DNA of 64,000 nt, from IMG/VR virus record IMGVR_UViG_3300043446_003513, positions 1 through 64,000 of that record. The stretch is one strand, 5' to 3'. The stretch's first letter is position 1. Each line of letters opens with the position of its first letter. The position numbers and the translations under genes are program-made. A model generated the notes under the pieces. The model saw nothing but the letters and a program-made list of their open reading frames with translations, ran no database searches and was not told the DNA's origin. The DNA is from a virus. This document shows, piece by piece, positions 5,351 to 58,674 of the stretch.

Positions 5351-5379
5351 ATTATAGCACTATCCTTGTACAGTTCCAA
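5351..5379 (-). promoter_or_regulatory. Promoter for the LamG appendage gene
   Basis: On the minus strand TTGGAA, a 17-base spacer and TATAAT, followed by the start ATG after 8 bases. Transcription would begin at or one base before the start codon, so the mRNA would be nearly leaderless. Confidence 0.6.
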
Positions 5380-5908
5380 TTAAATACCTTGTTCCGTGTG
5401 TTATTGGAAGCACTAAATGGTCATATGCATAACAAGCTGGGAAAATGACTATTTGATCTTTTGCTGGTTTTATTTCAATATCAAATCTTGGAAACTGTAT
5501 TTCCCCACCCTCGTAATCATCATTAGGATAGTATAAGGTAGAAGACCTATATGGCTTTTCATCATCTTGATCATCAAAATGCCTAAACATGTGATTATTA
5601 TTTGAATATTTTGCTATCCAAACATAATGTCTTTTAAAGTTTATTATTTTTCTTGGAGTATGAAAATCTAAAAAATAATCTGATTCAATTTTTGAAAATT
5701 TTTTATCAAAATATTCAAAAATTTCTCTATAGCCCTCTTCTCCATCTGGATAAAATGTCATGTGAGAAGGTTCGTTTTCTTGTTCAATCCAATTTATTTT
5801 ACCCTGTTCAACATAATCTAAAATAAACCTCAGTCCATCTTTAAGTTCTGGAGCTATGGCAGAATATATTCCTGGAGCTAAAATTTCAAATTGTTTAAAT
5901 TTTTTCAT
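5360..5908 (-). CDS. 2OG-Fe(II) oxygenase, prolyl-4-hydroxylase type
   Basis: 182 residues. Ligands H110 and D112 (RHFDD), H164 (YDHLVLPI) and R174 (HGTRYLIG) are all present. The central NDDYEGGEIQFP is nearly identical in most copies of this family in the window. It is the last gene of the seven-oxygenase block. No good Shine-Dalgarno (SD) sequence is visible, so translation may depend on the upstream gene 6 bases away. Confidence 0.88.
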   Translation of the reverse strand: MKKFKQFEILAPGIYSAIAPELKDGLRFILDYVEQGKINWIEQENEPSHMTFYPDGEEGYREIFEYFDKKFSKIESDYFLDFHTPRKIINFKRHYVWIAKYSNNNHMFRHFDDQDDEKPYRSSTLYYPNDDYEGGEIQFPRFDIEIKPAKDQIVIFPACYAYDHLVLPITHGTRYLIGTVQG

Positions 5909-5914
5909 ATAGTT

Positions 5915-6505
5915 TTATTCTTTAAATCTAAGATGCAAAACAAGGCAGGATCTTTCTCCTGAAATCAAATCATTAACAGAATGTAGTGTGTGTCCATCAA
6001 AACATACAATGCTACCAGTGCTTGGCTTATAAAACTTTTTATTTTCTTTTACATCTTGATCTACATTATAAAATATAATTTCTCCACCTTCAAAGTTGTC
6101 ATTTAGATAAAGAACTGCTGTATATATTTTCCCACCCTCTCCATACTGATCACAGTGTGGCTCCATGCCTTTAAAAACTTTTTCTTTTGAATTAAGGCAT
6201 TTATAATGCATGGTCTCATATATAATTTCTGAATCTTTAAAATTAAATACATGACACATGTTTTTGCCTATTAAATTAAAAATGTCATATATTAATGAAT
6301 TTTGTAATTCTTTTTTTTCTAAAAAATCAAGCAAGTAAAAAATATCTTCGGTGTAACCCATGCAAATCGAGTTTTCGCCATCCTCTTTGTTAACAAAAAT
6401 TAAACACTGGCCATTGTGATCAATTAAACCTGATTCTTTCATGTAAGAGTCTATATAATTACACATTTCCTTATTAATAAAATTTTCAATTATTTTGGGT
6501 TTCAT
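5915..6505 (-). CDS. 2OG-Fe(II) oxygenase, prolyl-4-hydroxylase type
   Basis: 196 residues. H117 and D119 (PHCDQ), H175 (TLHSVNDL) and R185 (SGERSCLVL) fit the facial triad and 2OG arginine. The FEGGEIIFYNVD variant and the GER ending group it with the copies at 31113-31676 and 48032-48709 rather than with its neighbours, so the block mixes at least two lineages. A strong SD (AGGAGGG) precedes the ATG. Confidence 0.88.
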   Translation of the reverse strand: MKPKIIENFINKEMCNYIDSYMKESGLIDHNGQCLIFVNKEDGENSICMGYTEDIFYLLDFLEKKELQNSLIYDIFNLIGKNMCHVFNFKDSEIIYETMHYKCLNSKEKVFKGMEPHCDQYGEGGKIYTAVLYLNDNFEGGEIIFYNVDQDVKENKKFYKPSTGSIVCFDGHTLHSVNDLISGERSCLVLHLRFKE

Positions 6506-6562
6506 TAAACCCTCCTTTATTAAATAAATTTAACTATTTAAATTATATCACAAATTTATATT

Positions 6563-7186
6563 TTAAATAATCCAATGAGCGTTATAGATATATTTATTCC
6601 CCGATGTTATAGGAAGCGCCTGATGGATATATGGCTCTTGAGATGGAAACATTACTAAACTACCAGCTTTTGGTTTTAATTTAACATCGTGATTTGGAAA
6701 AACTAATTCTCCACCCTCATAGTCATCGTTTATGTATGTAACCAATGAAAATCTTAAAAATGAATCGCCATCTTGACCGTCATAATGCGGACCCATTCCC
6801 TGGCCAGTATAATATTTTTTTAAAGTAATATGAGAAAGATCTAAATTAATTTCATTTTTATCTGTTCCAGTAACTTCACAGTATCTTGCTGCACACATCT
6901 CTGGAGCCATATATATACTGTTTAAAATATAAAGAGTATTTTTATCTAGAAGATCATCACCTGTAGATAAAGAAAGCCTATCTTTTACAAGATTTTTTCT
7001 ATCTCCGTAGTGATAAGATTTATCATTACTTGCATACCAAGGTTCCCATTTTGGAATTCTAATATAAGTTTTTGGAATTTCATCTAGCTTATTTAAAAGA
7101 TCCAAGAACTCTTTTTCATAACTAATTACATTTTCAAAATAAAAAATACCTTTATTTTCAAACTTCAGGTCAAACATACTATACAT
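6563..7186 (-). CDS. 2OG-Fe(II) oxygenase, prolyl-4-hydroxylase type
   Basis: 207 residues. H134 and D136 (GPHYDG) and H188 (YIHQALPI) are present. The usual 2OG arginine is replaced by lysine K198 (SGNKYIYN), a substitution known in part of the family. NDDYEGGELVFP is intact. The start overlaps the end of the upstream oxygenase by 8 bases; M4 (7177) is an alternative start. Confidence 0.85.
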   Translation of the reverse strand: MYSMFDLKFENKGIFYFENVISYEKEFLDLLNKLDEIPKTYIRIPKWEPWYASNDKSYHYGDRKNLVKDRLSLSTGDDLLDKNTLYILNSIYMAPEMCAARYCEVTGTDKNEINLDLSHITLKKYYTGQGMGPHYDGQDGDSFLRFSLVTYINDDYEGGELVFPNHDVKLKPKAGSLVMFPSQEPYIHQALPITSGNKYIYNAHWII

Positions 7187-7919
7187 CTATGTTTCCTTCT
7201 TTCGCAAGTTCGGCTGGATACTCTCCACCTTTTGGAGAAAGCCTTTTACCAGAAAGCCTTATCTTTTCCCATTCTGCTTGTTCTACTTTTTGTTTTGCCC
7301 TTGTTTCAGCAATCTCTTCAGCCCAAGCATCTCTGGTCTCCTGACTATAAGCTTCTTCTGGACGATCATCCCAAAAAGATCCTATCGTATACCTGTCTCC
7401 CTTTTTAACAACAGATACTTCATGCATATTGTGTCCTCCGCCAGCAAATATCACAAATAATCCTGGCTTTGGTTTAATAGATATTGGGTCATCTTTAAAG
7501 TTTAATTCCCCTCCTTCAAAATCATCATTTAAATAAATAAATCCAGCATATCTGCTTCTTTCAAAAGCACTCGGTTTTCCGTCATAACTATTATCTGAAT
7601 GAAATCCTGCAAAAGCTCCTGGTATCCATTTTTGAGTATGGAAACTAATTTTATGTGCTTCTCCACCTATTAAACTTTCTGCTGCAGACTTAACTCTTTT
7701 TTCAAGTTCTTCAAAAAAATTGCCTGGCAAATTAAATAATGCTAAATCAGGATCGTTTGGATAAGGATAACCAGAAGAATAAGATTCATAAAAGGATATC
7801 GGATGCCAACTAAATTCATTTTTTTGAACTTTGTATTCTAAAACCTTAATTATAGAGTCACATTCTTCTTTAGTTAAAAAATTATCATAGCATATGATAT
7901 CCGCTTTGAGCTTGTTCAT
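7179..7919 (-). CDS. 2OG-Fe(II) oxygenase with C-terminal extension
   Basis: 246 residues. H107 and D109 (GFHSDN), H166 (NMHEVSV) and R176 (GDRYTIG) are present. After the core, residues 185-246 form a charged helix rich in Glu, Arg and Lys that the sister copies lack. NDDFEGGELNF marks the family. It overlaps the upstream oxygenase by 35 bases; the SD AAAGGATAACGC supports the ATG at 7919. Confidence 0.87.
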   Translation of the reverse strand: MNKLKADIICYDNFLTKEECDSIIKVLEYKVQKNEFSWHPISFYESYSSGYPYPNDPDLALFNLPGNFFEELEKRVKSAAESLIGGEAHKISFHTQKWIPGAFAGFHSDNSYDGKPSAFERSRYAGFIYLNDDFEGGELNFKDDPISIKPKPGLFVIFAGGGHNMHEVSVVKKGDRYTIGSFWDDRPEEAYSQETRDAWAEEIAETRAKQKVEQAEWEKIRLSGKRLSPKGGEYPAELAKEGNIDV

Positions 7920-8718
7920 GCGTTATCCTTTCTCCATTATGTAGGTAAACCATATTTTTTGGATCTTCTTGATCAATTCTTTCTTCTTCCATTCTTGCCC
8001 ATCTATATGCGCCAAACCTTCTCTGATTGTCTAGCCATTCATCTGAACCTGCATATGGAACCATAACAAAATTTCTAACAAAAAACTTGTATCCGTTTTC
8101 AATTAATTTAACTCCATGATAATACGGTTCTCCAGAAGGAAATATTACAATATCTCCAGCTTTTGGTTTATGGTTTATTAACTTATTATCAACAAAAAAT
8201 TCTATGTCTCCGCCATCATAATCATCATTAATATACATTGTACAGGTAATAAAAAATTTTGGACCAGGCATATCTTTTTGAGAAACAATATAATCTGTAT
8301 GATATTGCATTGTCATTTTATTTTCCATTTTATCTACATTTGGATTATATTTTGAAAAAGAAGAACCACTAAAATATGCATCTTTTGGTAAATCAACATC
8401 ATATTTTTTAACATAATGAGATAAAGATTTTATGTAGGCATCGCTGACAGCTTGTGCAAAATATTTTTCCTCATCATATATCTCACCATATTCTGCTGGA
8501 TCAGAACTTTCTTTATGTTGCGAATACGTTCCAAAAATAGACCATTGATCCCATGTCTTTAAAAAATATTTTCCTTCCGATGAAGCTTCAGATTTTTTCA
8601 TAATTTGATAAAGATTGTCTATGTCTGGAAGAATATTTCTAAAAACAAGAACCCTAGGATATAGTTCTATAACTTCATATTCTGGATTTTCTAAATTAAC
8701 ATCTACTAAATTAATCAT
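7885..8718 (-). CDS. 2OG-Fe(II) oxygenase, long form
   Basis: 277 residues from ATG 8718, chosen because GGGAGAAAG lies before it and it forms an ATGA overlap with the upstream stop; a longer TTG start at 8754 is less likely. H140 and D142 (YHTDY) and H201 (YYHGVKL) are ligands; K211 or R215 (KFFVRNF) may bind 2OG. It resembles the copy at 27980-29017 in size and in having a longer N-terminal domain (about 110 residues). Confidence 0.87.
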   Translation of the reverse strand: MINLVDVNLENPEYEVIELYPRVLVFRNILPDIDNLYQIMKKSEASSEGKYFLKTWDQWSIFGTYSQHKESSDPAEYGEIYDEEKYFAQAVSDAYIKSLSHYVKKYDVDLPKDAYFSGSSFSKYNPNVDKMENKMTMQYHTDYIVSQKDMPGPKFFITCTMYINDDYDGGDIEFFVDNKLINHKPKAGDIVIFPSGEPYYHGVKLIENGYKFFVRNFVMVPYAGSDEWLDNQRRFGAYRWARMEEERIDQEDPKNMVYLHNGERITHEQAQSGYHML

Positions 8719-9395
8719 GGCTGTCTTTCTCCCGTATGCCTTAATATCGTCCAAAAAAATGGAGATGTAAATCTATTTCCTGACTTTATTGGCCTTACCC
8801 CGTGAACATAATTTTTATCACCAGGGAAAAAATATGCTGCGCCAGCTTTAGGCTTAAACTCTATTCCATGTTGAGGAAAATATAATTCTCCTCCTTCGTA
8901 GTCATCATTAAAATAAAATAAACCAGCTATATCATAATGAGGAAAACTATTTGGCCTACCTCTTTCTTCGCCAATATGAAACTCTTTGTCCGCATGTGGC
9001 TCTTGTCTTGCTCCAATTGGCCACCGAACAATTGCTGGTCCAGTTTCAATAGCATCGACCTCAAAAAATTCATCTACTTTTGGTTTTAATCTTTTTATCA
9101 TATCATAAATTAAATCTAATATAGTTGGGTCAGATTTAACTAATGAAAGGTAAGTACAAACTCTATCTTTCCAAATATTTGCTTGATATAAAACTAAACC
9201 ATCTTCGTCTATATCGTCTTCAGTTGTATCCCAAATTTTATTATTTAAGGCAAAGTCCGTCAGCTTTTTTCTTTCCTCTTCCGTAAGAAAGTTTTCTATT
9301 TCTACTATATTATTTGAAGAATTTCCAAAAAACCCAGATGGCGTTATTGATTTAGGTCTTTTATCAGTTACATCTTCACCATTAATAATCATCAT
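8715..9395 (-). CDS. 2OG-Fe(II) oxygenase, prolyl-4-hydroxylase type
   Basis: 226 residues. H134 and D136 (EPHADK), H198 (YVHGVRPI) and R208 (GNRFTSPFF) are present with NDDYEGGELYFP between. SD AGGAGATAAT precedes the ATG pair at 9395. The next gene starts within its stop codon, so the block is read as one operon. Confidence 0.88.
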   Translation of the reverse strand: MMIINGEDVTDKRPKSITPSGFFGNSSNNIVEIENFLTEEERKKLTDFALNNKIWDTTEDDIDEDGLVLYQANIWKDRVCTYLSLVKSDPTILDLIYDMIKRLKPKVDEFFEVDAIETGPAIVRWPIGARQEPHADKEFHIGEERGRPNSFPHYDIAGLFYFNDDYEGGELYFPQHGIEFKPKAGAAYFFPGDKNYVHGVRPIKSGNRFTSPFFWTILRHTGERQP

Positions 9396-9424
9396 ATTAT
9401 CTCCTCACATAATAATAGCATATC

Positions 9425-10123
9425 TTATATCTCATTAACCTTTAATTTTATTGATTTAGTTTCATGTTGACCTAATTGGTTTCCTTCATGATCTTTTGCG
9501 TCTCTATAAAAATTTGACCACTTGCCTTCTTGGTTTAATTTTACCATTTCTTCAACATATTTTTTATCTAAAAAATAATTTTCTGGAGCCATTCCTCCCG
9601 ACATCAAATTAATTTCTGAATTATTTATTTCTCCAATAGATATAGGAACTATTGCTGATACTGGTGTATTAGCTTTAATTATAATTTCTTTATTTGGTTT
9701 GGTTATTTTCCAGGCGCAAGGGAATTCTCCTCTAAAAAAAGATGTAGTTATTATTGTGCTAAAACATTGTGCGCCATCAATAAATTGATTTGGAACAGGC
9801 ATCTGAAAAAGACTTACATTTGGATCTGTTTTAAAAACTAAACCAGTGTGAAAACTAATTGTAGCATTTGCTCTTCCAGTATCAACATATTTTTCTCCAG
9901 ACAAAATTTTAACATGGCTATCTGAAGAGTCTGAAATTCCATCCCATATAAAAACAATATCTTCTGGATACGACAAGCCCCACCCAAAAGAGTTGGTTAG
10001 AGTTACTGGAAAACATTTATAGGCATGAGCTTCCCATGTTTCATCCATCCAATCTCTTTTTACTGGAAGATTAGATATTATTGCTGGATTATGTCTAATT
10101 TTATATGCGTCAACTTTATACAT
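9425..10123 (-). CDS. DUF6065-like protein inside the oxygenase block
   Basis: 232 residues without an HxD...H triad. Features such as AHAYKCFPVTLTNSFGWGL and DIVFIWDGISDS match my memory of the DUF6065 family, whose function is unknown. It overlaps the upstream oxygenase by 8 bases and is the only non-oxygenase gene among seven. That fixed place suggests a shared pathway, perhaps as partner, substrate or a second modifying enzyme. The family name is moderately sure; the role is open. Confidence 0.65.
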   Translation of the reverse strand: MYKVDAYKIRHNPAIISNLPVKRDWMDETWEAHAYKCFPVTLTNSFGWGLSYPEDIVFIWDGISDSSDSHVKILSGEKYVDTGRANATISFHTGLVFKTDPNVSLFQMPVPNQFIDGAQCFSTIITTSFFRGEFPCAWKITKPNKEIIIKANTPVSAIVPISIGEINNSEINLMSGGMAPENYFLDKKYVEEMVKLNQEGKWSNFYRDAKDHEGNQLGQHETKSIKLKVNEI

Positions 10124-10775
10124 TTTGTTTCGGCATTATTAGTTTATAGAAATCTTCACTGTGACAATTATCATTATAATCAAGCATTGTGACTATGGAG
10201 TACTTTGTTCCGCTAGCAACTGGCATTGCTTTATGAGAAAATAAATATGTTGATGGGAATATATATAAATCTCCTGCTTCTGGAGTAATTTTTAAATCTA
10301 ATTTTGGAAAATATAATTCTCCGCCCTCATAATCATCGTTTGGATATCCTACTAAAGATACAGTGGCAACATAAGAAAATCCATGATCTGCATGTTCTTC
10401 AAAGTGTTGTCCTGGACCATATTTAATAAAATTCATTGCTTCCCAAAAATCCATTTTTATACTATACATGTTACAGTAATCTAAAACTGCTGGAATTTGA
10501 GCATCATAAGCATCTTGCCAAATAGAATTTAAAACCTTTTGTTTTTCTGAAAGAATTAATGATTTATTTTTATTTAGTTTAAAATCAAAACAATCTCTGT
10601 AGCTTGGACGAGTTTCTCCATAGCCCACAAACGCCTGTTCCCATTTACCAAATGGATCATTTTCTATTGCTTTTTCTATTCTATTAATTAAATCTAATTC
10701 TTTTTTAAAGATGTCTTTATACTTCCATATGCCTAAAAACAATTCTTCTTTTGAAGTCCATGACTGTTGATTCAC
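10116..10775 (-). CDS. 2OG-Fe(II) oxygenase, first gene of the block
   Basis: 219 residues from GTG 10775. H128 and D130 (EEHADH), H181 (FSHKAMPV) and K191 (SGTKYSIV) in the 2OG position. NDDYEGGELYFP is present. It is the first gene behind a consensus promoter at 10800-10828, with a 24-base leader after the -10 box. It lies immediately downstream of the PPGFF/Hint gene. Confidence 0.88.
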   Translation of the reverse strand: MNQQSWTSKEELFLGIWKYKDIFKKELDLINRIEKAIENDPFGKWEQAFVGYGETRPSYRDCFDFKLNKNKSLILSEKQKVLNSIWQDAYDAQIPAVLDYCNMYSIKMDFWEAMNFIKYGPGQHFEEHADHGFSYVATVSLVGYPNDDYEGGELYFPKLDLKITPEAGDLYIFPSTYLFSHKAMPVASGTKYSIVTMLDYNDNCHSEDFYKLIMPKQNV

Positions 10776-10799
10776 AAAACGTCCAATCTCTATGTAGAG

Positions 10800-10828
10800 A
10801 TTATATAATTATATCCAATGTATGTCAA
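10800..10828 (-). promoter_or_regulatory. Consensus promoter of the oxygenase block
   Basis: TTGACA, 17-base spacer and TATAAT on the minus strand, all consensus. It would drive the genes from 10775 down to about 5360. A short CTCT-ACAT-AGAG hairpin follows in the leader. Confidence 0.75.
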
Positions 10829-10837
10829 GATGCCAAA

Positions 10838-12184
10838 TTAACTAATTACTAGGTGATCGCCAGCAATAAACCATTTATTTGGTTCTGTTTTAATGGTGTA
10901 AACATCTTGATCTTCATCGCTAACTGTTATTGTTTCAATTTTGACAAAGTCAATGGAGCCGTTATTTTTAACCGCTAAAGCCTCGTCTCCTATATTAATT
11001 TCAGAAACAAGCACCGAAGTTATTCCGCTATCTTTTTTAATAAATATAGGTTGATTTAAAGAATAGTTTGCAATTTTATTATCATTAAACCAAACAATTT
11101 TTTCTTTTCCATGAGTTGCTTCAGTTACTGTTGTTTCTTCAAACTCTAGATTATTTGCATCTAAAAAGTATTCTTCATCAGAATTACTTGTTAAATTTTT
11201 TGAAGAAATTGTTAAAATATTTTGTCCAACAATAATTTCTTTTGCTAAACAAATTCCATCTTTAGTCAATATTGGAGTTTCCCCGCCAATGCAATAATAT
11301 GGAATTGGTTTTGAAAATCTTGGTGGAGAAAAAAAGGATGGAGGGAAAAAGAATCCTGGTGGAACAAAGAATGCTGGAGGAGAGAAGAACCCTGGAGGGG
11401 CAAAGAACCCTGGAGGGGCAAAGAACCCTGGAGGGGCAAAGAACCCTGGAGGGGCAAAGAACCCTGGAGGGGCAAAGAACCCAGGAGGAGAAAAGAACCC
11501 TGGAGGAGAAAAGAAGCTGGGCGGCAAAGTTGTTACGCTATTAGAAGCCGCTGATGTTATAGAATTTCCGTTAGCGTTAATTGCATAAACAGTATATGTT
11601 TGTGCCGTATTATATTCTTGTGATACAGTAACAGATGTTGAAGCTGTTGGTCCACCACCTGGAGTTCCTCCAGCTAAATTTGTTTTTCCATCTGAAGATG
11701 CCCAAATATATCCAGTAATATTTTTGCCACCAGTTGCTGGAGCTGTCCATGAAACTGTATCAGAATCTACGCCAGCAGTAGCAGTTGGGGCTGCTGGAGT
11801 AGCAGGAACTGTTGTTGCTAATACTGAAGATGATGTTGTGCCGCTTGCGGTTCCACCAATACTGACTGTTTGAACAGTAAACGTGTATGATGTATTAGAG
11901 GCGAGTCCTTGAAAAGTATATGATGTTGTAGATGTACCAGTATTTACTGTATATGTTGAAGGAGTAGATGTAATTATATAAGAGGTTGCCGCTGGAGATG
12001 TAGACGGAAGTGTCCAAGATAGTGTTACGGCTGCGCCAGTTCCCGCTGCAGATGCAGCAGATGTTGTATTGGCGGTTGCCAAATAAGGTCTATTAGTTCC
12101 TACATCTGTTGCCGTTAAAGATGTAACATCTAGTGGAGCGGGCGCTCCAGATCCTTTAATTCCCGTTCTTTTACCAGTAGCCAT
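10838..12184 (-). CDS. FnIII - PPGFF repeat - Hint domain appendage protein
   Basis: 448 residues in three parts. Residues about 25-220 form two fibronectin type III-like domains (SYTFQGLASNTSYTFTVQT; VSWTAPATGG). Residues about 221-288 are tandem FF(S/A)PPG units. Residues 298-448 look like a Hint (hedgehog/intein) domain: C298 opens CIGGETPILTKDG, a His lies in TEATHG, and VYTIKTEPNKWFIAGDHLV matches the intein F block. The protein ends VIS, without the usual His-Asn and without a C-extein, so it could not splice normally; N-terminal cleavage at C298 is possible. It lies between fibre genes and oxygenases, so a virion appendage is likely. SD AGGAAGAGG supports the start. Confidence 0.8.
   Translation of the reverse strand: MATGKRTGIKGSGAPAPLDVTSLTATDVGTNRPYLATANTTSAASAAGTGAAVTLSWTLPSTSPAATSYIITSTPSTYTVNTGTSTTSYTFQGLASNTSYTFTVQTVSIGGTASGTTSSSVLATTVPATPAAPTATAGVDSDTVSWTAPATGGKNITGYIWASSDGKTNLAGGTPGGGPTASTSVTVSQEYNTAQTYTVYAINANGNSITSAASNSVTTLPPSFFSPPGFFSPPGFFAPPGFFAPPGFFAPPGFFAPPGFFAPPGFFSPPAFFVPPGFFFPPSFFSPPRFSKPIPYYCIGGETPILTKDGICLAKEIIVGQNILTISSKNLTSNSDEEYFLDANNLEFEETTVTEATHGKEKIVWFNDNKIANYSLNQPIFIKKDSGITSVLVSEINIGDEALAVKNNGSIDFVKIETITVSDEDQDVYTIKTEPNKWFIAGDHLVIS
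11322..11523 (-). repeat. Tandem 18-bp repeat coding FF(A/S)PPG
   Basis: About eleven units of six codons; the central five are identical at DNA level (unit AACCCTGGAGGGGCAAAG on the plus strand, about 11389-11480). Outer units have drifted. The pattern shows recent copy-number growth. Each unit gives Pro-Pro-Gly followed by two Phe. Confidence 0.9.
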
Positions 12185-12218: not shown

Positions 12219-15200
12219 TTATGCGGACAAATCTCCGAGTAATACCCACTCATTTGCAGCTCTTTTAAATAAAGTTGCAGATGACCAGCGATCTCTAAGA
12301 CTTTTTCCTGGTGTAGCATTAACGTTTGCCAAGCCAGAATTTGTGATTGTTACTGCACCAGTATTAATTCTTAATATATCAATAGATGTTCCAACTGGAT
12401 AAGTTAATGAGTTTGTGCCATCTTGAGGAACTGTAATTGTTATCGTTCCAGTAGAATCACAAGTAATCATTTGATCTCTTAAACTTGTTCCGCCATCGTT
12501 GATTCCAAAACTTGCGGTTTTTGCTGTTATTGTTGTTTGAGATGGAACGCCCTCTTTAGATTGTGTGCCATCAGAAAATGTAATGCTTGTTGCAGTTGCT
12601 GCGCCCAAAGTTGGTGTTACTAATGTTGGACTATTTGCAAAAAGAAGTGCTCCAGTTCCAGTTTCATCAGTAAGCGCTGCTGCAAGATTTGCAGATGATG
12701 GCGTTCCAAGAAATGTAGCAACTCCAGTTCCTAGAGATGTAATCCCTGTGCCTCCATTTGCTACTGGTAATGTACCAGTTACACCTGTGGTAAGTGGAAG
12801 ACCAGTTGCATTTGTTAGAGTTCCGCTTGAAGGTGTACCAAGTGCTCCACCATTGACTACTGGAGCGCCAGCAGATCCTACGTTAACTGCAAGAGCAGTT
12901 GCTACGCCAGTTCCAAAACCAGATATACCAGTAGATACTGGAAGTCCTGTTGCATTTGTGAGCGTGGCAGATGAAGGTGTGCCAAGCGCTGGTGTAGTTA
13001 ATGTTGGACTTGTAAGTGTTTTATTTGTCAGAGTTTGTGCTGTATTTAGATCAACAGTTGTAGCAGTATTAATGCTAAATGTATTTCCAGTTAATGTTAA
13101 TCCTGTACCTGCTACATATGTACCACTACCAGAAAATTGAGTAAATTCAATTGCATCTGTACCAATTGTAGTAATGGTATTTGTTTGTACCCAGCCAGTT
13201 TTTCCGTTAACCGTACCGTTTTCAACGAAGATAAAGTCTCCAGCATCTACCTCTGGGGTTGAGTCATAATCAGTTGCTCTTGTTGGAGCTCCAGAAGCAT
13301 TTACTGTATAAACACCATTTTGTGATTTTGTTGTTTGATTCTTAACAAGAATTCTATTGCCTGTTGCAAGAGTAACCCCATCAAGAACGTCACCATTTTC
13401 AACATCTGTCGCAAGTGTGATATTTGCAGTAGTTGCAGCCTTTACAGAATCATGTACGTTGAGACCAGAAGTTGCTGCATCTACATAAGCTTTTGTTGCT
13501 GCATCTTGATCTGCTGTAGGATCTGCAAGATTTGTAATCTTTTGACTGTTCATTGAAAATGAACTAGTAGGTGCAGCAAGATCTGTTACCTTAGATGTAC
13601 GAACTTGTGTATCAAAGTCTGAAATTGTACTTGCTGTTTGTGTGCCAGTATGATTTGCACGTGCAAGAGGGTCTGTGGCAAGTTTGCTGAGAGCAATTGC
13701 TGCTGAAGCATTAATATCAGCATTAACAATTGTCCCATCAGCAATCATAGTAGAAGTAACAGTTCCAGAAGGTAGTGTTACTGTTCCTGTAAATGTTGGA
13801 GAAGCAAGCGGAGCCTTTGCATCAAGAGCAGATTGAGTTGCTGTTGATACTGGCTTGTCTGCATCAGAAGTGTTGTCTACGTTTGCAAGTCCAATCATCG
13901 ACTTTGTAATACCTGAAACGGTACCAGTAAATGTTGGTGATGCAATTGGTGCATAAGTGCTTGACGCTGTAGATGTAGATAGTTTAGAATCAATTTGTGT
14001 TTGAATTGAACTGGTAACTCCGTCAACATAATTAAGTTCTGTTGTACTTAAAGTTGCCCCATCGAGAATATTTAATTCTGCTGTTGAAGCAGTTAATCCG
14101 TCAAGTATATTAATTTCTGATGTGGACGCAGTAACACCATCAAGAAGATTTATTTCAGAAGCCGAAGCTGTTATATCTGAAATATTTGCTGATTGAACAG
14201 TAAGAGTATTATTTAAATATGAAATTGTTTTATTAGTTAAAGTTTGTGTGTCGGATGTTCCAACTATATTGCCTGTAGTGCCATGAGAAGACGTATCTGT
14301 TGCGTGAGTTGAAATTTCATTTCCTACATATGTTTTTGTAGCCAAATTTGCAACATCATCAATTCCATGAACCATTGTACTTGTTTCAGAATGTGTTGTA
14401 AGATCATTATAAGTAACTCTATCATCAATTTGTGATTGAATTGCCGATGTTACTCCATCTAAATAAGAAATTTCTGATGAAGAAACTTGACCTATGCTTG
14501 TGGTATCTGGAAGAGTTACAGTTCCAGTAAATGTTGGAGCTAAAATAGGTGCATAAGTGGTTGATGCTGTAGAAGTATTTAATTTAGAATCAATTTGCGT
14601 TTGAATTGCTGAATAAACGCCACTTAAATAAGAAATTTCGACTGGAGTAACAGATCCTATTGTTGTTGTATTTGGTAAGGTGATATCTCCAGTTAACGTT
14701 GTATTATTTTTTACAGCATAATCTGAAGCTGCACTTGAAATAGAAAGTTTATTATTCAATTGTGTTTGAATTGCTGAAGTAACTCCATTTAAATATTGAA
14801 ATTCAGTATTGCTTACATCTCCTATATGTATTTCATCTCCATATAGTATTCCAAGCTGCATAGTTTCTTTTGTATAGGTTGAAAAATCAACAGTGTTTGT
14901 TGGTTCATTTGTTACACCAGAAAATAACTTCCAAACTCCGTCTGTTGCATCTTTTATAAAACCAGTGTGAGAATATGTGCCAGAAATTGTATGAGATCCA
15001 ATAATGCCTATGTCTACAGTATTAGAATTATTATTTTCTGCCATATAAATAATAGGATTTGTTACCGTTAAAGTTTCTACTGGAACTGTATTATAAGTTC
15101 CATTTACAGTTAAATCTCCATCAACTATTAACGATCCAGCTTGAACTTCTCCAGTAAAAATAGCAGAAGAGGCACCAATTTGGTCTGCCCCAAAACTTCC

Positions 15201-15935
15201 AGATATTGTTACGCTGTCTGATAAATTTACGGTTAGTGTTCCAGCATTATCATTATAAGAAGTATCAATATTATTTCCACCAATAATAGTTGAATTCATT
15301 AAATCTTGTGTTGTTTCTGTATAATCTGAAACACTTGTTGTAGTTATAGAAATACTATTGCTTGAACTATTAATTGTTTTATTTGTTAAAGTTTGATTTC
15401 CGTTTGTTGTAACTAATAGTGAAGTATCTGCTATTCCATGTATGTTTGTTGTGTTTGATTCATGAGACGCAATTAATGAATTAATTTCGCTTGTATTTGT
15501 TAAAGCTTTCCAGTTTGCATTTGTTGAAGCAGGGGAAGATTGAAGAACATAACTTGTTCCATTGTCATTTTGAATTGCAATATCTCCAGGTTGCGCTGTT
15601 AATGCAAGTCTTGCTGTTTGATCTGCAACAGTGTTTACTGTAACTTTAACAAGCGCTGGTAGCTGACTAGCTGGAACTAAACCGTCCGAATCAAGTGAAG
15701 CAACTCCATTTGCTTGTCCAACATCTGCTAACAAAACATAATCTGAAAGTGAATCTCCTAATCCAGTAGGAGTAACATTTGCATAAGGAAGCTCTGTCCA
15801 TGTATCGGAATTATTACCAATTTTAAATTTATTAGTATCGCTCTCAATGCCAACCTCCCCTGCAGCCAAGACTGGATCGACATCTGTCCAATCTGCTGCT
15901 AGACCTCTACGAAGTTGAATTCTTACTGTTGACAT
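12219..15935 (-). CDS. Long tail fibre with Mtd-like N-terminus
   Basis: 1238 residues. The N-terminus ([17 protein letters not shown], then [16 protein letters not shown]) is the short attachment module seen in Mtd-type and other fibres. The body is low-complexity Thr/Ser/Asn-rich with repeated NLLDGVT, NILDGLT and NYVDGVT lines, typical of trimeric beta-helical shafts, and repeated [11 protein letters not shown] units. It ends in a small globular tip after VTITNSG. SD GGGAGC lies before the ATG. Role: host recognition. Confidence 0.82.
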
Positions 15936-24652: not shown

Positions 24653-25642
24653 TTAGGAAAACTTTTTTACAACATCTTTAAAAGCATTATTAGTCAACTG
24701 AATCCAGTTATATTCTTTATGAATTTTAGAAGCTTGTGCATAATAGTATCCAGAGTATGCTTTAAAATTATGAACAACATCTCTCATAACCTCAAGTAGA
24801 TGTTGATACTCTGGTTCAAACATTTTGCCCTCATGAGGAAATGGCCAAGGAGAGTCAACTAGTTCTGACTTTAATGCAAGAGGTCCTAAGTAGTTTTTAT
24901 AGTGTGCCCAATTTTCAGTACAAATAGTCGGCATTCCAGTTGCTAAAGCTTGTAATGGAATAAATCCAAATCCCTCTCCGTAGCTTGGATAAAGTAAAAC
25001 ATCATGATCATGAAAAAGTTTTACTAATTCTAAATCAGAGAGTTGTTCTGTTATTATATTTATATTGTTATATACTTGATGTGGTAAGCCAATAATATTT
25101 TTATCTAAATAATTATTATATATTCTTGTAGTATTATTAAAATAAGCTTTTATGGTTAAAGAATATCTTGGATCATTTCCAAATAGTTGTGAGAATGCAT
25201 CTACAACCATTTGCCCACCTTTTCTTGGTGCTGGCTCTCCAACATGCAAAAACTTTATTACTTCGCCTTCGTTTCTTTTTTTAAGTTTCCAAATATCTTG
25301 AATGCCATGAGGATAAACTTTTATATCTTTAAATCCATTATCTTCAAAAACATTAGCACACCAATTTGATGTAGTCCACAACTCATCACATGCTTTCATC
25401 ATATTGATCCATCTATCTGGAATTTTCGTAGATTCCCAAGGAGTGTATCCTATTTGGTATTGACCTTTATGCATTTTAAAATGTTCTGGTTGTGCAAAGT
25501 TTAATTGAACTGGAGATTTAGCATTTGAATAGGGAACAATGTGACCAAGGGTTTTTAATGAATCAACTATATTTAAGCCAGCATAACCGTATCCATTAGA
25601 ATTTTTTAAATTAATAGTTGGTGTAAAAAATGAAATTTCCAT
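24653..25642 (-). CDS. Glycosyltransferase, GT4-like
   Basis: 329 residues. VKVYPHGIQDIW and IKFLHVGEPAPRKGG are typical of the C-terminal nucleotide-sugar domain. PSYGEGFGFIPLQALATG is the EX7E region, but the second glutamate is glutamine, an odd change. It may glycosylate virion proteins or host surface or DNA; the target is unknown. Its last base is 86 bases from the reductase start. Confidence 0.82.
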   Translation of the reverse strand: MEISFFTPTINLKNSNGYGYAGLNIVDSLKTLGHIVPYSNAKSPVQLNFAQPEHFKMHKGQYQIGYTPWESTKIPDRWINMMKACDELWTTSNWCANVFEDNGFKDIKVYPHGIQDIWKLKKRNEGEVIKFLHVGEPAPRKGGQMVVDAFSQLFGNDPRYSLTIKAYFNNTTRIYNNYLDKNIIGLPHQVYNNINIITEQLSDLELVKLFHDHDVLLYPSYGEGFGFIPLQALATGMPTICTENWAHYKNYLGPLALKSELVDSPWPFPHEGKMFEPEYQHLLEVMRDVVHNFKAYSGYYYAQASKIHKEYNWIQLTNNAFKDVVKKFS

Positions 25643-30314: not shown

Positions 30315-30464
30315 CTAGAATAGAGTAGGGTCTTCCTCTATGTCGTCATCATATACGTCGAATGTTTCCTCAAATAGGTCAGCGGCATCATTTACTTGAT
30401 CAATAACGAACCATAATAGGAATCCAAATAGACCTACAAGAGCGACGGGCAGAAAGCGTTTCAT
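30315..30464 (-). CDS. 49-residue membrane protein after the SpeD-like gene
   Basis: One hydrophobic segment (FLPVALVGLFGFLLWFVI) and an acidic tail (DVYDDDIEEDP). The ATG overlaps the stop of the SpeD-like gene (ATGA), so they are translated together. Function unknown. Confidence 0.6.
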   Translation of the reverse strand: MKRFLPVALVGLFGFLLWFVIDQVNDAADLFEETFDVYDDDIEEDPTLF

Positions 30465-30850
30465 AATAGCTCATTTCCTATTACTTCAGTCTTAAATCCA
30501 TCTTCTCTATCAAATAGAACATAATCAATAGAACTAACGTCAAAGGCATTTCTAAATATTGTAAGCACTTTATCCAAATCTAGCTTGCCACAAGTATATA
30601 GATCAAATTGAACCAAAGAAGGATCCATCTCGTCCCATATATGAAATGCTATATGACTAGTTTCGATCATTACTATGGCTGTTAGCCCTTTATTCCCCGC
30701 CTTGTCTACATAACTTGCAAATGGACCTTTTATGATCTTCATATCGATATCATTTACTAGCTTAGTGAGAAAATCGATACCCTCTTCTTCGGTATTCATT
30801 GGATTATGTACTTTTGCATTTATAAGTAAGTGCTTGTGATATATCATCAT
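30461..30850 (-). CDS. speD: S-adenosylmethionine decarboxylase-like
   Basis: 129 residues, the size of bacterial class 1B SpeD proenzymes. The MIETSHIAFHIWDE block gives Ser65, the probable pyruvoyl-forming residue (Thr-Ser here instead of Glu-Ser), and His70; Cys87 (LYTCG) is the expected third residue. Family members decarboxylate SAM for spermidine synthesis. Phages carry such genes to change polyamine supply for DNA packing or host growth. Activity is inferred. Confidence 0.82.
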   Translation of the reverse strand: MMIYHKHLLINAKVHNPMNTEEEGIDFLTKLVNDIDMKIIKGPFASYVDKAGNKGLTAIVMIETSHIAFHIWDEMDPSLVQFDLYTCGKLDLDKVLTIFRNAFDVSSIDYVLFDREDGFKTEVIGNELL

Positions 30851-46136: not shown

Positions 46137-46646
46137 TTAAGCCGATAAGATTTTTGAAATTGCATTTATTGTTGATGCAATTCTTCCAATATCTCTAAGT
46201 TGTTCCGTAGAGTATCCTTCTTGCTTTAAAGTGTCATAATGAGCTTTCACACAAAAATGGCACTTTCCAATTATTGATGCTACTAATGAGTAGGCTTCAA
46301 ACTTGCCCTTGGTAGTTCCGCCATGACTTGAAATAGCATTCATTCTTAATTGAGCTGGAAGACCTTTTAAGTCTTTATCTCCCGCCATCTCAATATACGG
46401 GTACCAAATATTATTTTGAGCCATTAATGATGCAGCAGTAAGAGCGGCATCTCTTTCAGTAACATTATCAGCGCTTGCTAAAATAAAAGTTAAAAGCTTA
46501 CTGTTTCCTGTAGCAAATGCAGCAGAAATAGATAAATACTTTGCTTCTTCTGGATCAATAGAAGATCTATTAATAACTGCATCTAGATTTAACTTAATAT
46601 CTTTAGCGTAATCAGGAATAGACTCTTTTAGTTGATCAACCCACAT
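46137..46646 (-). CDS. ahpD: AhpD-like alkylhydroperoxidase
   Basis: 169 residues. IGKCHFCVKAHYDTL holds the CxxC (C129, C132) and His136 of AhpD. In actinobacteria AhpD reduces AhpC. It overlaps the upstream AhpC gene by 11 bases, so the pair is made together. Unusual cargo for a phage; it may protect against peroxide made during infection or by oxygenases. Confidence 0.88.
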   Translation of the reverse strand: MWVDQLKESIPDYAKDIKLNLDAVINRSSIDPEEAKYLSISAAFATGNSKLLTFILASADNVTERDAALTAASLMAQNNIWYPYIEMAGDKDLKGLPAQLRMNAISSHGGTTKGKFEAYSLVASIIGKCHFCVKAHYDTLKQEGYSTEQLRDIGRIASTINAISKILSA

Positions 46647-47181
46647 TTAATGTGTCTCCACCCAAAGGTCTGTTGCATGCACAAAGTTCTCCAGTTTGCA
46701 AGGCGTCCAAAACTCTCAAAGCTTCGTCTGCATTGCGACCAACGTCTAGATTATTGCAAGTAACATGTTGAATAATATTATCTGGATCTACAATAAATGT
46801 TGCACGATATGTAACTCCAGATGAATGGTGAACGCCTAAATCATTTGCTAATTGGTGCGCCGTATCTGCAAATGACCAAGAATTTGTTTTTCTTAGATCT
46901 TCATGAGCATTTCTCCAGGCCACCTTACAAAATTCATTATCGACAGAACCAGTCATTAATACTGCATCACGGTCGTTAAAATCATTGACTAACTTATCAT
47001 ATGCAACAATTTCTGTTGGACATACAAAAGTAAAGTCTTTTGGATAAAAAACAATTATTTTCCATTTTCCAGGAAATGAATCTTGTGTAATAGTTTCGAA
47101 AGTTGAATCGTCATAAGTTAAAGCTCCTGGCTTAACACCAGTAACAGCAAAATCTCCTAATTTGCTTCCAACAGTTTTCAT
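46636..47181 (-). CDS. ahpC: Peroxiredoxin AhpC
   Basis: 181 residues. The peroxidatic Cys54 lies in FYPKDFTFVCPTE, and the resolving Cys in GELCACN near residue 168. It reduces peroxides. Consensus promoter and SD AAAGGAG precede the start. It leads the AhpC-AhpD-oxygenase operon. Confidence 0.92.
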   Translation of the reverse strand: MKTVGSKLGDFAVTGVKPGALTYDDSTFETITQDSFPGKWKIIVFYPKDFTFVCPTEIVAYDKLVNDFNDRDAVLMTGSVDNEFCKVAWRNAHEDLRKTNSWSFADTAHQLANDLGVHHSSGVTYRATFIVDPDNIIQHVTCNNLDVGRNADEALRVLDALQTGELCACNRPLGGDTLNVG

Positions 47182-50455: not shown

Positions 50456-50657
50456 CAGATTTTAACTCTTCCGCTGCAGCATTAAACTTATTCATAAAGT
50501 TTTGAATGATAAATATCGTAGTCTCATTAGCATTATTTGCTAAGGCTTTTGAGGACTCCTCTGTTTTATCTTCCTCTGGAATAGCGTTATACCATTTCTG
50601 GTATAACTCTATCGCAAGGTCTCTTATAATCTCTTCTAAGACTGTTAAATTAGCCAT
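50448..50657 (-). CDS. 69-residue helical protein
   Basis: ATG 50657 overlaps the subtilase stop. TVLEEIIRDLAIELYQKWYN and NETTIFIIQNFMNKFNAAAE. Unknown. Confidence 0.6.
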   Translation of the reverse strand: MANLTVLEEIIRDLAIELYQKWYNAIPEEDKTEESSKALANNANETTIFIIQNFMNKFNAAAEELKSDV

Positions 50658-51582
50658 TAATAGATGCTCCAATGTTTATTAAGCCTGGGAAGGATCCTTG
50701 TCTTCCCCGAACCGTTGTTGATGTACGATAAACTAAATCAAATTGTTCTGTAAATGAAAGTCCTGGCTTAGCACTTTTTATTGCAATCCATTGTGCTGCA
50801 GCAATTTGAGTAGAAGCCGAAGTTCCAGCAGCATTTGCTTTAGCCCCGCCAGGAAGAATTGCAGTCGTATTACCAAGCGCAAACAACATTTTTAAATTTT
50901 TGTCTACATTTGAATACATGGCAATATCATTTTGTTGATCTGTCGCAGACACTGGAATGGCGCCAGCCTCACATGCTGGCCAATCAACTCTATTATAATC
51001 TCTATCATTTCCAGATGAAACAAAGAAAGGTACGTTCATAGAAGAAAGAGTCTTAATATTGTTGTTCACTCTTGCATTAACTGGACAGTAATTCTGTCTA
51101 GACATCAGATTGTGGTGGCTTTGTGCGCTTGCAACTGCTTGAATATTGTATTTGTCTTTATTATCAATAACCCATTTTAACGCATTTTCTACAGATCTTG
51201 GGCCAGCAAGTTGCCTACTGCCAGATTTAGTATTACCAATAATTCTAATAAAAACAATTTTCATATTTGGGTTAGCATTAACAGCAATTGAAGCCATTTG
51301 TGTCCCGTGATTAAAATCTCTAGTTACCATAAAATTAAGAGGGATAACTGAGGCTCCAGGGCCCTCCATGAAAGACGTCCCATTTGGACAGGAATTCCAT
51401 TCGAGGACACAAACCTCTTGGGCTATCCTATCTTGAAAAATAGGGAGTGATGTATCCAATGCTGTGTCGAGAATAGCTAAAGCTGGTTGCGCTACTGCAT
51501 CTTGATTTTTAATCGCTGCATTCGCTGTTGTTGGAATAATTAATAGTAATGATAAAACCGCCAAAATAATTTTTTTATTCAT
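50650..51582 (-). CDS. Secreted subtilisin-like protease
   Basis: 310 residues. Signal peptide KIILAVLSLLLIIPTTANA (cut after about residue 22). The catalytic triad is D39 (AILDTALD), H92 (NHGTQMASIA) and S255 (AGTSASTQIAA), with N192 (SSGND) for the oxyanion hole. It would act outside the membrane, in the cell wall or medium. A secreted protease is rare in a phage; it may process virion or host surface proteins. Leaderless-type promoter. Confidence 0.87.
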   Translation of the reverse strand: MNKKIILAVLSLLLIIPTTANAAIKNQDAVAQPALAILDTALDTSLPIFQDRIAQEVCVLEWNSCPNGTSFMEGPGASVIPLNFMVTRDFNHGTQMASIAVNANPNMKIVFIRIIGNTKSGSRQLAGPRSVENALKWVIDNKDKYNIQAVASAQSHHNLMSRQNYCPVNARVNNNIKTLSSMNVPFFVSSGNDRDYNRVDWPACEAGAIPVSATDQQNDIAMYSNVDKNLKMLFALGNTTAILPGGAKANAAGTSASTQIAAAQWIAIKSAKPGLSFTEQFDLVYRTSTTVRGRQGSFPGLINIGASING

Positions 51583-53938: not shown

Positions 53939-54222
53939 TTTGCACCTTCCAGTTCACATCTTACGCCGTAAGACTCTATAGTATTTTTTATCATCTCAAT
54001 ATATTCAATTACTTTTACTCTATGTGATCCATCATATTTTGCAAAATTGCTTTCGTATAATCTTATAGCTAAAAATTCTGGATATTTAACTATATCCATT
54101 TTTAAATCTGGCACAGGACACCTTAATTCTCTTACTCTTTTAGCCATTTCTTTTGTATAAAAAACTGGCTTGTTTGGCTCACCAGTCCATTGGTTTATGC
54201 CATATTTAAAATGATTATCCAT
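53935..54222 (-). CDS. 95-residue protein
   Basis: FKYGINQWTGEPNKPVFYTK and FLAIRLYESNFAKYDGSHRV. ATGA-type overlaps. I recall similar proteins in actinophages but no function. Confidence 0.65.
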   Translation of the reverse strand: MDNHFKYGINQWTGEPNKPVFYTKEMAKRVRELRCPVPDLKMDIVKYPEFLAIRLYESNFAKYDGSHRVKVIEYIEMIKNTIESYGVRCELEGAK

Positions 54223-54523
54223 TTTTCTTTCTTATTCTTTTCCATATATCTGGTGTTTTGTGAAGATTCTTAGTTTTATCTACAGATCCAGAGTTTAAAT
54301 AAACTCCACCCCACACCCCATATTCATTATTTTCTATACCAGACTGATAGCAAAGTTTAGAAACTGGGCATCCTAAGCATGCCTCATCTACATTTCTAGC
54401 TATATTTTGATCAATTTCATATTTATCAAAAAATAGATTTGTATCCATTCCCTTACATACTGCTATGTCATACCAATTAAAATCTTCTTTATCTATACCT
54501 AAACTATCTAAAATGTTTGACAT
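54215..54523 (-). CDS. WhiB-family transcription factor
   Basis: 102 residues. Four Cys (C23, C49, C52, C58) that bind an iron-sulfur cluster, followed by GVWGG (69-73), the WhiB hallmark, and a basic tail. WhiB proteins bind the host primary sigma factor and occur only in actinobacteria and their phages. It is the best host marker here. Confidence 0.92.
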   Translation of the reverse strand: MSNILDSLGIDKEDFNWYDIAVCKGMDTNLFFDKYEIDQNIARNVDEACLGCPVSKLCYQSGIENNEYGVWGGVYLNSGSVDKTKNLHKTPDIWKRIRKKNG

Positions 54524-56010: not shown

Positions 56011-56223
56011 TTAGTCCTCCTTTTTATTTCTTATTCTTAAAGTAACAATCCAAACAATTGTTGACCAAACAATTGCCCATCCAACTATTGTTCTGGCTGC
56101 TCCAGTAAGTGTTAGCCATGCGATAAAGAATCCAAGTAGTGTGAATGTTTGATTCATTATTTCAATAAATGAATCCCTTATCCATGCAAAAAATCCTTTT
56201 ATCATTTTAATTACTAGTTTCAT
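56011..56223 (-). CDS. Small membrane protein, holin candidate
   Basis: 70 residues. Amphipathic start and two membrane segments (FTLLGFFIAWLTLTGAA; IVGWAIVWSTIVWIVTL), then a basic end. Size and topology fit a class II holin. Overlaps the PA14 gene by one base. Confidence 0.62.
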   Translation of the reverse strand: MKLVIKMIKGFFAWIRDSFIEIMNQTFTLLGFFIAWLTLTGAARTIVGWAIVWSTIVWIVTLRIRNKKED

Positions 56224-58412
56224 TAGATCCTCCTCGCTGATAATATATTTGCGACAGCATTCATAACTTGAGAAACTATAATTACAGGAATAATTACTTC
56301 CTGAGCTTTTTCTCTTTGATCATCTGTCATGTCCGACCCAAGGCTAGCTAAAGCTTCTCCTGGATTAGAAAGTAAATCTGAAGTAAATTGAGCTAATTCT
56401 TGTAAGCTCTCACCAACTGCAGCAGCAGCTGCACCTGGGTCTGTAAACGCTTCTGTAAGTCCTGAAATAATTTGTTCTGCTTGAACCTCTGTTGCTGCAT
56501 CAGCAAGTGTGTATGGCATAGGGGAATTTGCATTAGCCTCCGCTCTTTGATTAAATTGTTCTACTGCTTGTGCAATTACTGGATCAGATTTAATTAATTC
56601 TGCCAATAATTTTACATCTTCCTTTGATAAATCAGTTTCTTTAATTACTTCAATTAATTGTTCTGTTTCTTTTTTAGATAATCCGCTATCTTCTAATATA
56701 TTTGCTATAATTATTTCATCTTTAGAAAGGTTTTCAGTTGGAAGATTTTCTTGAACATCTTGGTCCTGGACATCATTTATGGTCTCTTGAGGATCTTGTG
56801 TCTCTGTATTATCTTCAACAGGGACTTCTGGCTCAGGAGGTAGGACTTCAGTCTGATCTGGCTCTACTGGAACAGGTTCTGGATTTGGTACATCATCGAC
56901 TGGGGGATTCTGTTCATCGATTGGAGTTTCATCAATTGGTGTTTCTGGTTCAACAGGAATTGTTGAATCCTGATTTGGATCAGGATCTTGTTCTGGTTCG
57001 GGAGCTGGCGGAACAACGGGATCGGGATTTGGAATTACTGGTGGCTGGACTGGTACGGGAGGAGGCTCTGGTGTCGGAGGTTGAACTGGTGGAGTGGGAT
57101 TGGGTTCTGGTGCAGGAGGAGGCTCTGGAGTCGGAGGTTGCTGAGGTGAAGGCTCGGGAGTTGGAGTTGGTGTTGGAGACGGCTCGACAGGAGCGGGAGA
57201 AGTTGGAGTGGGCGAAGGCTCCGTGGGAGTTGGAGATGGGCTCGGGGTGGGTTCAGGAGCGTTCTTAAAAGTAATAGAAAGTATTAATATTTTACCAACT
57301 CCTGGAACTGGATCTGTAAAGTTAGCATTTGTAGCAGATATATTTGCTGTAGCTAAATTTGTAAATTGTTCTGTAAGCTGACTAGAAACATTAATACCTT
57401 GAGAGCCATCATTTGGGTGCCCATACCAACCAATGATTTGATCTATTAGTTTACCTTCTGGTGCATTTATAACTATAGAATCATTTTCATTTATTGTATG
57501 TTGTGGAGTAAATGGTAGTGGTGATGGAATATATAAAGTTACTACATTAGAATCTTGAGAATAAGTTGACAAACTATCATTGTCTGCTCTTATTTTAAAC
57601 TGATACTCTTTACCAGTTCCGTCAGTAGTAATTACGCTATATGGAATTGTTATAGATGTATTTAATGCTGTTTCGCTTCCAACATTACCAGTTGCTACCC
57701 CCCACCCATTAGTTGTAAAATTTGTTGTAGACCAGCTGATTGCGTATCTTTCTACTGCTGTATTTGCTTGAGTTGGAACAGGTGCAGTCCAAGATAAAGT
57801 TATATTTTCTGATTGTGTGCTTAAAGACAAACCTGTGGGAGGATTTAAAGATGGTGGAAGTGGGGGAGTTGGTTCTGTCAAATAAAAAACTGTGGACGGA
57901 ACAATTTGATCCCCAGAACCATCGTTCCAATATAACCAAACATTTGCCCCACCGCCATTTTCATAAAACCATAAAGTGAATGGATATGGGGTATTTGCTT
58001 GTAAAGTAACTGGCTGACTTATACTTCCGCCGCCACCTTTGTCATACCAGTCATTAATTAAAACTATATTATTAAAAGTAAAATGTATACCATCATCGCC
58101 AGGAGCATAAAAGTTTACTGTCTTTGTTACTGGAGACATAATATAACCAGTAAATTTAACTTCTACATCTTCATATCTATTACTAAGTACTGGTCCACCA
58201 CCCCAGTTAAAATCTATTGTAGATACTGTTGTGGTATTAATTAACACATTTTGATAGCATGGTCTAGGTGGAGCATTGTTCCATCCTGCACAATTGTATA
58301 CTTGTGCTGTTATGCCATTCTCATTAGTAGCCGCTGCCGACTCTACAAAACCAAAAAAGGATGACCCAAAGATCACCCCTAGGACGGCAACTATGCGAAA
58401 AAGTTTTTTCAA
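56223..58412 (-). CDS. Secreted PA14 - FnIII - Pro-rich protein
   Basis: 729 residues from TTG 58412. Signal peptide (LFRIVAVLGVIFGSSFFGF). Residues 35-185 form a PA14 domain (NFYAPGDDGIHFTFNNIVL; FTLWFYENGGGANVWLYWN), a sugar-binding beta barrel. Residues about 190-290 are FnIII-like. Residues about 390-560 are Pro-rich with Ser-Pro-Thr-Pro and Pro-Glu-Pro repeats. A helical end finishes with a hydrophobic IIPVIIVSQVMNAVANIL. It may span or coat the cell wall, or sit on the virion. The Pro-rich part could be modified by the oxygenases. Confidence 0.75.
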   Translation of the reverse strand: MKKLFRIVAVLGVIFGSSFFGFVESAAATNENGITAQVYNCAGWNNAPPRPCYQNVLINTTTVSTIDFNWGGGPVLSNRYEDVEVKFTGYIMSPVTKTVNFYAPGDDGIHFTFNNIVLINDWYDKGGGGSISQPVTLQANTPYPFTLWFYENGGGANVWLYWNDGSGDQIVPSTVFYLTEPTPPLPPSLNPPTGLSLSTQSENITLSWTAPVPTQANTAVERYAISWSTTNFTTNGWGVATGNVGSETALNTSITIPYSVITTDGTGKEYQFKIRADNDSLSTYSQDSNVVTLYIPSPLPFTPQHTINENDSIVINAPEGKLIDQIIGWYGHPNDGSQGINVSSQLTEQFTNLATANISATNANFTDPVPGVGKILILSITFKNAPEPTPSPSPTPTEPSPTPTSPAPVEPSPTPTPTPEPSPQQPPTPEPPPAPEPNPTPPVQPPTPEPPPVPVQPPVIPNPDPVVPPAPEPEQDPDPNQDSTIPVEPETPIDETPIDEQNPPVDDVPNPEPVPVEPDQTEVLPPEPEVPVEDNTETQDPQETINDVQDQDVQENLPTENLSKDEIIIANILEDSGLSKKETEQLIEVIKETDLSKEDVKLLAELIKSDPVIAQAVEQFNQRAEANANSPMPYTLADAATEVQAEQIISGLTEAFTDPGAAAAAVGESLQELAQFTSDLLSNPGEALASLGSDMTDDQREKAQEVIIPVIIVSQVMNAVANILSARRI

Positions 58413-58494: not shown

Positions 58495-58674
58495 CTACTT
58501 ATTATCTGTCTTGTAGAATCCAGTTCCTTTAAACTGTATTCCAACTGATCCATAAGATCTTGTAGTAGCGTAACCGCAAGATAGGCATCTGGGAACAACT
58601 TCTTCGTCGTGAAAACCCCTAGTTACCTCTAATGATTTATCGCATGTCACACATACATACTCATATACTGGCAT
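58495..58674 (-). CDS. FmdB-type zinc ribbon protein
   Basis: 59 residues from ATG 58674 (ATGAGGAAAAT upstream; a longer frame exists). MPVYEYVCVTCDKSLEVTRG and PRCLSCGYATTRSYGSVGIQ then FKGTGFYKTD are the FmdB regulatory-protein pattern with two CxxC. Common in actinobacteria; role unclear. Overlaps the cupin gene. Confidence 0.85.
   Translation of the reverse strand: MPVYEYVCVTCDKSLEVTRGFHDEEVVPRCLSCGYATTRSYGSVGIQFKGTGFYKTDNK

Follow-up and report, generated by a model that had tools for sequence, protein, structure and literature searches.

The window analysed here, a 64,000-nucleotide stretch of a virus genome, encodes a structural protein with a repetitive proline-rich tail that is directly followed by a cluster of prolyl 4-hydroxylase (P4H)-type 2OG-Fe(II) oxygenase genes. 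The same order, a Pro-rich-tail protein directly followed by P4H-type genes, recurs in many uncultured aquatic phages; the tail and 2OG genes are linked, and among relatives of this phage they co-occur in an all-or-none manner. We infer from these patterns that the tail protein is located in the virion and that the P4H-type enzyme encoded next to it probably hydroxylates its prolines, to the presumed benefit of the phage.

The proline-rich tail protein and its downstream oxygenases

The tail protein matches the PHROG family of central tail fibre J (category tail), and in its AlphaFold2 (AF2) model two folded parts are separated by the repeat, most of which has pLDDT <50 (Table 1). The initial annotation had described about eleven FF(A/S)PPG units. 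Eleven tandem FFxPPx units are indeed present, but only 7 of them are exactly FF(A/S)PPG, with one FFVPPG and three units ending in A, S, or R; PPG ends 8/11 units, and PPA, PPS, and PPR end the others. Composition-preserving shuffles of the repeat region (n=20,000) produced at most 5 units, compared with the 11 observed, and the 18-bp array in the gene was detected independently by TRF. In being repetitive, Pro-rich, and predicted to be disordered, the tail resembles extensin-like sequences.

Table 1. Positions in the window of the proline-rich tail gene, its domains and the neighbouring genes
Feature	Position	Strand	Remarks
Fibre-like structural protein (Mtd_N)	12219..15935	(-)	Upstream context of the module
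Pro-rich-tail structural protein	10838..12184	(-)	448 aa; two Fn3, [FFxPPx]11 linker/tail, C-terminal Hint-like domain
Fn3 domains, aa ~11-221	11522..12154	(-)	Pfam fn3 E 8.8e-13; AF2 model; Foldseek tandem FnIII
Eleven FFxPPx units, aa 224-289	11318..11515	(-)	Predicted disordered, pLDDT mostly <50
Degenerate Hint/intein-like domain, aa ~296-448	10841..11299	(-)	Cys1 kept; block-B His to Gln; C-terminal His-Asn to Ile-Ser
P4H-type 2OG-Fe(II) oxygenase, conserved partner family og8a	10116..10775	(-)	H128, D130, H181, K191
DUF6065 protein	9425..10123	(-)	Also between 2OG genes in L001 and L003
2OG-Fe(II) oxygenase (HxD..H..R)	8715..9395	(-)	
2OG-Fe(II) oxygenase (HxD..H..K)	7885..8754	(-)	
2OG-Fe(II) oxygenase	7179..7919	(-)	
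2OG-Fe(II) oxygenase (HxD..H..K)	6563..7186	(-)	
2OG-Fe(II) oxygenase	5915..6505	(-)	
2OG-Fe(II) oxygenase	5360..5908	(-)	

The C-terminal part of the protein is a Hint-like domain that does not figure in the initial annotation. Its matches to Hint/intein profiles are weak (E 0.006 and 0.041) and score under the curated family cut-offs (16.7 vs 35.8 bits and 13.9 vs 29.7 bits); Intein_splicing is matched by 9/21 homologues, and the best PDB matches of the domain are inteins (E 0.001-0.06). The position-1 nucleophile, Cys in the window, is Cys in 67/75 and Ser in 8/75 sequences. At the block-B TxxH position the window protein reads SLNQ, and relatives show Q, E, or H at the last residue; its C terminus reads DHLVIS, the terminal His-Asn being retained in some relatives only. 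Because the block-B His and the terminal His-Asn have been lost, self-cleavage by the window domain is doubtful, and Hint-mediated cleavage that exposes the tail, though attractive, is not claimed here. A Hint-like domain follows the repeat in 75/236 repeat ORFs, while 128/236 end no more than 40 aa past the repeat, some of them cut by contig ends. At two loci (L019 and L167) the FFxPPx repeats are followed, as judged by eye, by an apparent S74-type intramolecular chaperone domain, not by Hint.

Seven P4H-like 2OG-Fe(II) genes lie just downstream of the repeat gene, as had been reported, all on its strand within 5360-10775 and with one DUF6065 gene interposed; the first begins 62 bp past the repeat gene's stop codon. 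At least 15 2OG domains are encoded in the 106.7-kb record as a whole, and the window oxygenases belong to the sequence family PHROG 61. DUF6065 genes also reside within the 2OG clusters of distant loci (L001 1759-2454, L003 4213-5638), where L003 has a second, diverged relative adjoining.

The enzyme encoded nearest the tail gene is a member of the og8a family, most aligned homologues of which are 50-81% identical to it, with the three most distant at 22-37%. Its HxD...H iron triad is invariant across 20 aligned og8a sequences, as is K191, the predicted 2OG-binding lysine, which is located ten residues beyond H181. The same H+10 spacing of the lysine is found in collagen and algal P4H. The AF2 model of the enzyme (pLDDT 90) has as its top Foldseek matches Pseudomonas P4H (4iw3), the PBCV-1 vCPH (5c5t), Chlamydomonas P4H-1 (2jig), and human PHD2, with E values of 3e-11 and up and TM scores of 0.54-0.67, and its predicted fold is a P4H-like double-stranded beta-helix. 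The enzyme has an intact active site and the predicted fold of peptidyl-proline hydroxylases. The og8a sequence profile finds a bacterial P4H as its best match (E 1.7e-7). The same profile also weakly matches the LH3 lysyl hydroxylase and PKHD-type enzymes, and the seven window enzymes differ from each other, the residue predicted to bind 2OG being either K or R. Both observations would fit enzymes that hydroxylate the virion protein at sites other than the repeat prolines (Asp, Asn, Lys, or positions in the Fn3 and Hint domains), the Pro repeats only marking a class of protein. We consider this highly unlikely, since relatives with Fn3 proteins that lack Pro repeats also lack the enzymes, and the (TP)n and NPGF proteins described below share little except proline.

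Elsewhere in the window, a WhiB-type transcription factor (54215-54523, minus strand; Pfam E 1.9e-11) suggests, from sequence, an actinobacterial host. Genes for an AdoMet decarboxylase (30461-30850), an AhpC-type peroxiredoxin (46636-47181), a subtilase (50650-51582), and a ferritin-like protein (59925-60386) are all on the minus strand. The Pro-rich protein at 56223-58412 has a weak PA14-like match (E 5e-5, just under the Pfam cut-off) and contains no FFxPP; directly upstream of it, also on the minus strand, 58661-59251 encodes a JmjC_2/cupin-like protein, possibly a further 2OG hydroxylase. The initial annotation had also envisaged sugar addition to hydroxyproline by a glycosyltransferase, but nothing ties the GT4-type enzyme at 24653-25642 to the tail.

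Linkage and co-occurrence of proline-rich tails and 2OG genes

Co-occurrence of PPGFF genes and 2OG genes in related phage contigs, which had been suggested as a check, proved strong in three designs. From the enzyme side, a scan by conserved 2OG motifs alone, blind to repeats, yielded 80 og8a-family loci. In this sample, which is not fully blind in that the og8a profile was built from repeat-adjacent enzymes, a Pro/aromatic-rich ORF is located no more than 4 kb upstream in 40/44 loci (those with at least 4 kb upstream), and downstream in 0/61.

From the repeat side, DNA patterns for FFxPPxFFxPP and PPFFPPFFPP were searched in IMG/VR, each giving at least 100 stretches. Among the matches listed, the repeat gene has a same-strand 2OG gene no more than 1 kb downstream in 112/176 cases, or 44/81 clusters at 70% identity, and a 2OG gene lies upstream in 2/142; control genes taken from these loci give a downstream frequency of 24%. 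The 18/140 tails with no 2OG gene within 4 kb count against the proposed module. A second enzyme family, og8b, is distributed by tail type, accompanying 0/58 spaced FFxPPx tails vs 50/82 unspaced FFPP tails. Coevolution was dropped as an interpretation of this match, as the tree gives few independent changes and the match mostly reflects one lineage split.

The same matches bear on the initial proposal that X-Pro-Gly is the determinant, as it would be in a collagen-type system in which enzymes recognise this motif and a collagen-like triple helix gains stability from hydroxylation. Such a system would account for the PPG in 8/11 window units, but among the matches listed 51/97 PPG-free tails also have a 2OG gene no more than 1 kb downstream. 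Moreover, among the matches listed the constrained residue is the one that precedes PP, which is A/S/G in ~94% of 1312 units, while the residue after PP is varied and is G in only ~47%. PPG as a required motif was rejected on account of the PPG-free linked tails and this variable residue. The collagen-like piece noted previously amounts to GPQGPAG, the tail repeat is a hexamer, and no G-X-Y run of at least four is present in any ORF of at least 90 aa, and a collagen triple helix was rejected on these grounds. Taken as a whole, the collagen-type explanation is scarcely credible.

In the third design, records were picked on portal identity alone (at least 79% to the window portal), and 29 records >22 kb were searched. 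A 2OG gene is present in 16/29 (Pfam and profile agree), and all 16 of these carriers encode a Pro-rich repeat protein, of FF/PP type in 11, NPGF in 3, (TP)n in 1, and PPPYDNTYSN in 1, the last two motifs having been recognised post hoc, by reading the exceptions. The 11 FF/PP records are exactly those with at least five og8-profile matches; an extra single FF/PP match, in G020, is noise. NPGF repeats are found in G011, G014, and G015; a full reading of G011 and G014 shows an NPGF protein that begins with a PASTA-like part, ends with a Hint-like one, and is encoded near a 2OG gene. In G005, the (TP)n tail gene precedes the 2OG gene by ~600 bases, an interval that contains one small ORF. In G016, the 2OG gene is cut by the contig start and the PPPYDNTYSN repeat protein is encoded a few hundred bases downstream.

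FF/PP or PGF repeats were found in 0/13 of the portal-picked records without 2OG genes, which were probed with three motif patterns and may be fragments, though nine of them span ~50-87 kb. Naive probabilities, which ignore kinship, are ~1.5e-8 for 16/16 vs 0/13, and ~3e-8 for 11/11 vs 0/18 (FF/PP with at least five enzymes). Fn3 domains are present in most of the 13 2OG-free records and thus are not the correlate. Where alternating-CC matches in 2OG-free records were read, they lie in large ORFs whose plausible frame reads Gly-rich. Gly-rich stretches are located in fibre-like ORFs of the 2OG-free relatives G007, G009, G013, G017, G020, G021, G023, and G027 (L429-L437, L427), as though such repeats stood in for Pro-rich ones.

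Beyond this group, the repeat pattern gave 31 matches in 257 Gb of cellular genomes, apparently in spurious frames, and so is essentially absent from them. No close og8a relatives were found in isolated phages, and tblastn of two repeat proteins against phage records gave no match. In isolated cyanophages, 2OG genes adjoin genes for tail fibres or tail assembly chaperones (L442 1070-1738 and 2657-3400; L440 809-1546), and none of those checked has a Pro-rich tail within 8 kb of its 2OG genes. That cyanophage 2OG genes lie among tail genes with no Pro-rich tail indicates that the superfamily has other roles too, and that the explanation offered here applies to a class of these enzymes in phages and does not extend to all of them.

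The cyanophage pattern, together with the location of both tail and oxygenases in the variable fibre region, could also reflect a co-travelling host-range cassette, exchanged as a unit since tail and enzymes would serve one host encounter, with enzymes that act elsewhere (on the host envelope, nucleotides, or small molecules); Sullivan et al. (PMC3037559) proposed that they function in DNA repair or in the metabolism of 2OG. However, what the enzymes track is the presence of proline repeats, in any of five motifs and on at least two different N-terminal anchors, and relatives with Gly-rich stretches in their fibres lack both tail and enzymes, though they keep Fn3 proteins. In addition, the partner enzyme resembles protein prolyl hydroxylases. 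On balance, we regard the cassette as possible but unlikely.

Proposed tail hydroxylation and relation to known P4H systems

Hydroxylation of tail prolines, the reading we prefer, is judged likely from the proline common to FFxPPx, FFPPFF, NPGF, (TP)n, and PPPYDNTYSN, together with the intact active site and P4H fold of the partner enzyme. Peptides of the candidate-substrate type are GFFAPPGFFAPPGFF, GFFAPPSFFAPPSFF, FFPPFFPFFPP, (TP)8, and (NPGF)4. In the proposed module, a virion protein with an Fn3 or PASTA-like anchor and a long, disordered, repetitive Pro-rich tail, which in some cases ends in a Hint-like domain, would be paired with several P4H-type 2OG enzymes encoded downstream. The directly downstream enzyme would most likely hydroxylate the tail prolines ahead of virion assembly or in its course, drawing on host 2-oxoglutarate, Fe(II), and O2, and the further enzymes may, as a guess, act at different positions or on different residues. 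Once hydroxylated, the Phe/Pro tail would be stiffer and closer to a polyproline-II-like shape, less sticky, and equipped with hydroxyl groups, and the altered tail should affect adsorption or particle stability. On a broader scale, multi-2OG clusters may render Pro-rich tails hydroxyproline-rich and plant-cell-wall-like, with an enzyme set fitted to each tail, in a widespread and previously undescribed maturation that depends on O2 and 2OG. We rate the chances of this wider proposal as about even. The occurrence of at least seven 2OG genes vs one visible Pro-rich tail in one phage counts against the module.

The closest viral parallel is PBCV-1, which is known for a single P4H that acts on virally encoded Pro-rich repeats, as opposed to several enzymes encoded next to a fibre gene. 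Its vCPH (5c5t) likewise represents a virus-encoded P4H fold, but PBCV-1 infects algae and is not a phage. PMC9301287 cites Eriksson et al. 1999, whose title states that this chlorella virus encodes a P4H. Chlamydomonas P4H-1 (2jig; 3gze with (Ser-Pro)5) and the plant cell-wall P4Hs that act on hydroxyproline-rich glycoproteins have a like fold and repetitive, non-collagen substrates. The A/S/G residues before Pro in the phage tails resemble plant P4H motifs. These are eukaryotic secretory enzymes, however, and only 16-17% identical to the phage enzyme, for which tail hydroxylation is what we propose. Bacterial P4Hs (Pseudomonas 4iw3, Bacillus 5v7y) provide the best fold and profile matches, yet their substrate is EF-Tu, not a repeat tail. 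The PHROG 61 oxygenases of cyanophages and other aquatic phages share the sequence family of the window enzymes; the cyanophage members checked, unlike those of the window, lack a Pro-rich tail within 8 kb.

In the literature, phage 2OG proteins have been described as structurally like EGLN3 (PMC12774648), and P4H-like genes have been listed among phage auxiliary genes whose use "remains cryptic" (PMC9301287). No report that ties phage Pro-rich tails to 2OG enzymes was found in the open-access literature; a viral P4H with viral Pro-rich substrates is already known from PBCV-1 and, as far as we found, there is no phage precedent.

The 2OG-Fe(II) oxygenases of aquatic phages are numerous and unexplained auxiliary genes, for which DNA repair or nitrogen/2OG metabolism are the usual guesses. 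The pairing described here provides a concrete candidate substrate for a large class of these enzymes, namely one of the phage's own structural proteins. If tail-proline hydroxylation is correct, bacteriophage virions would mature in part through protein hydroxylation, which would bear on host adsorption and on gene annotation.
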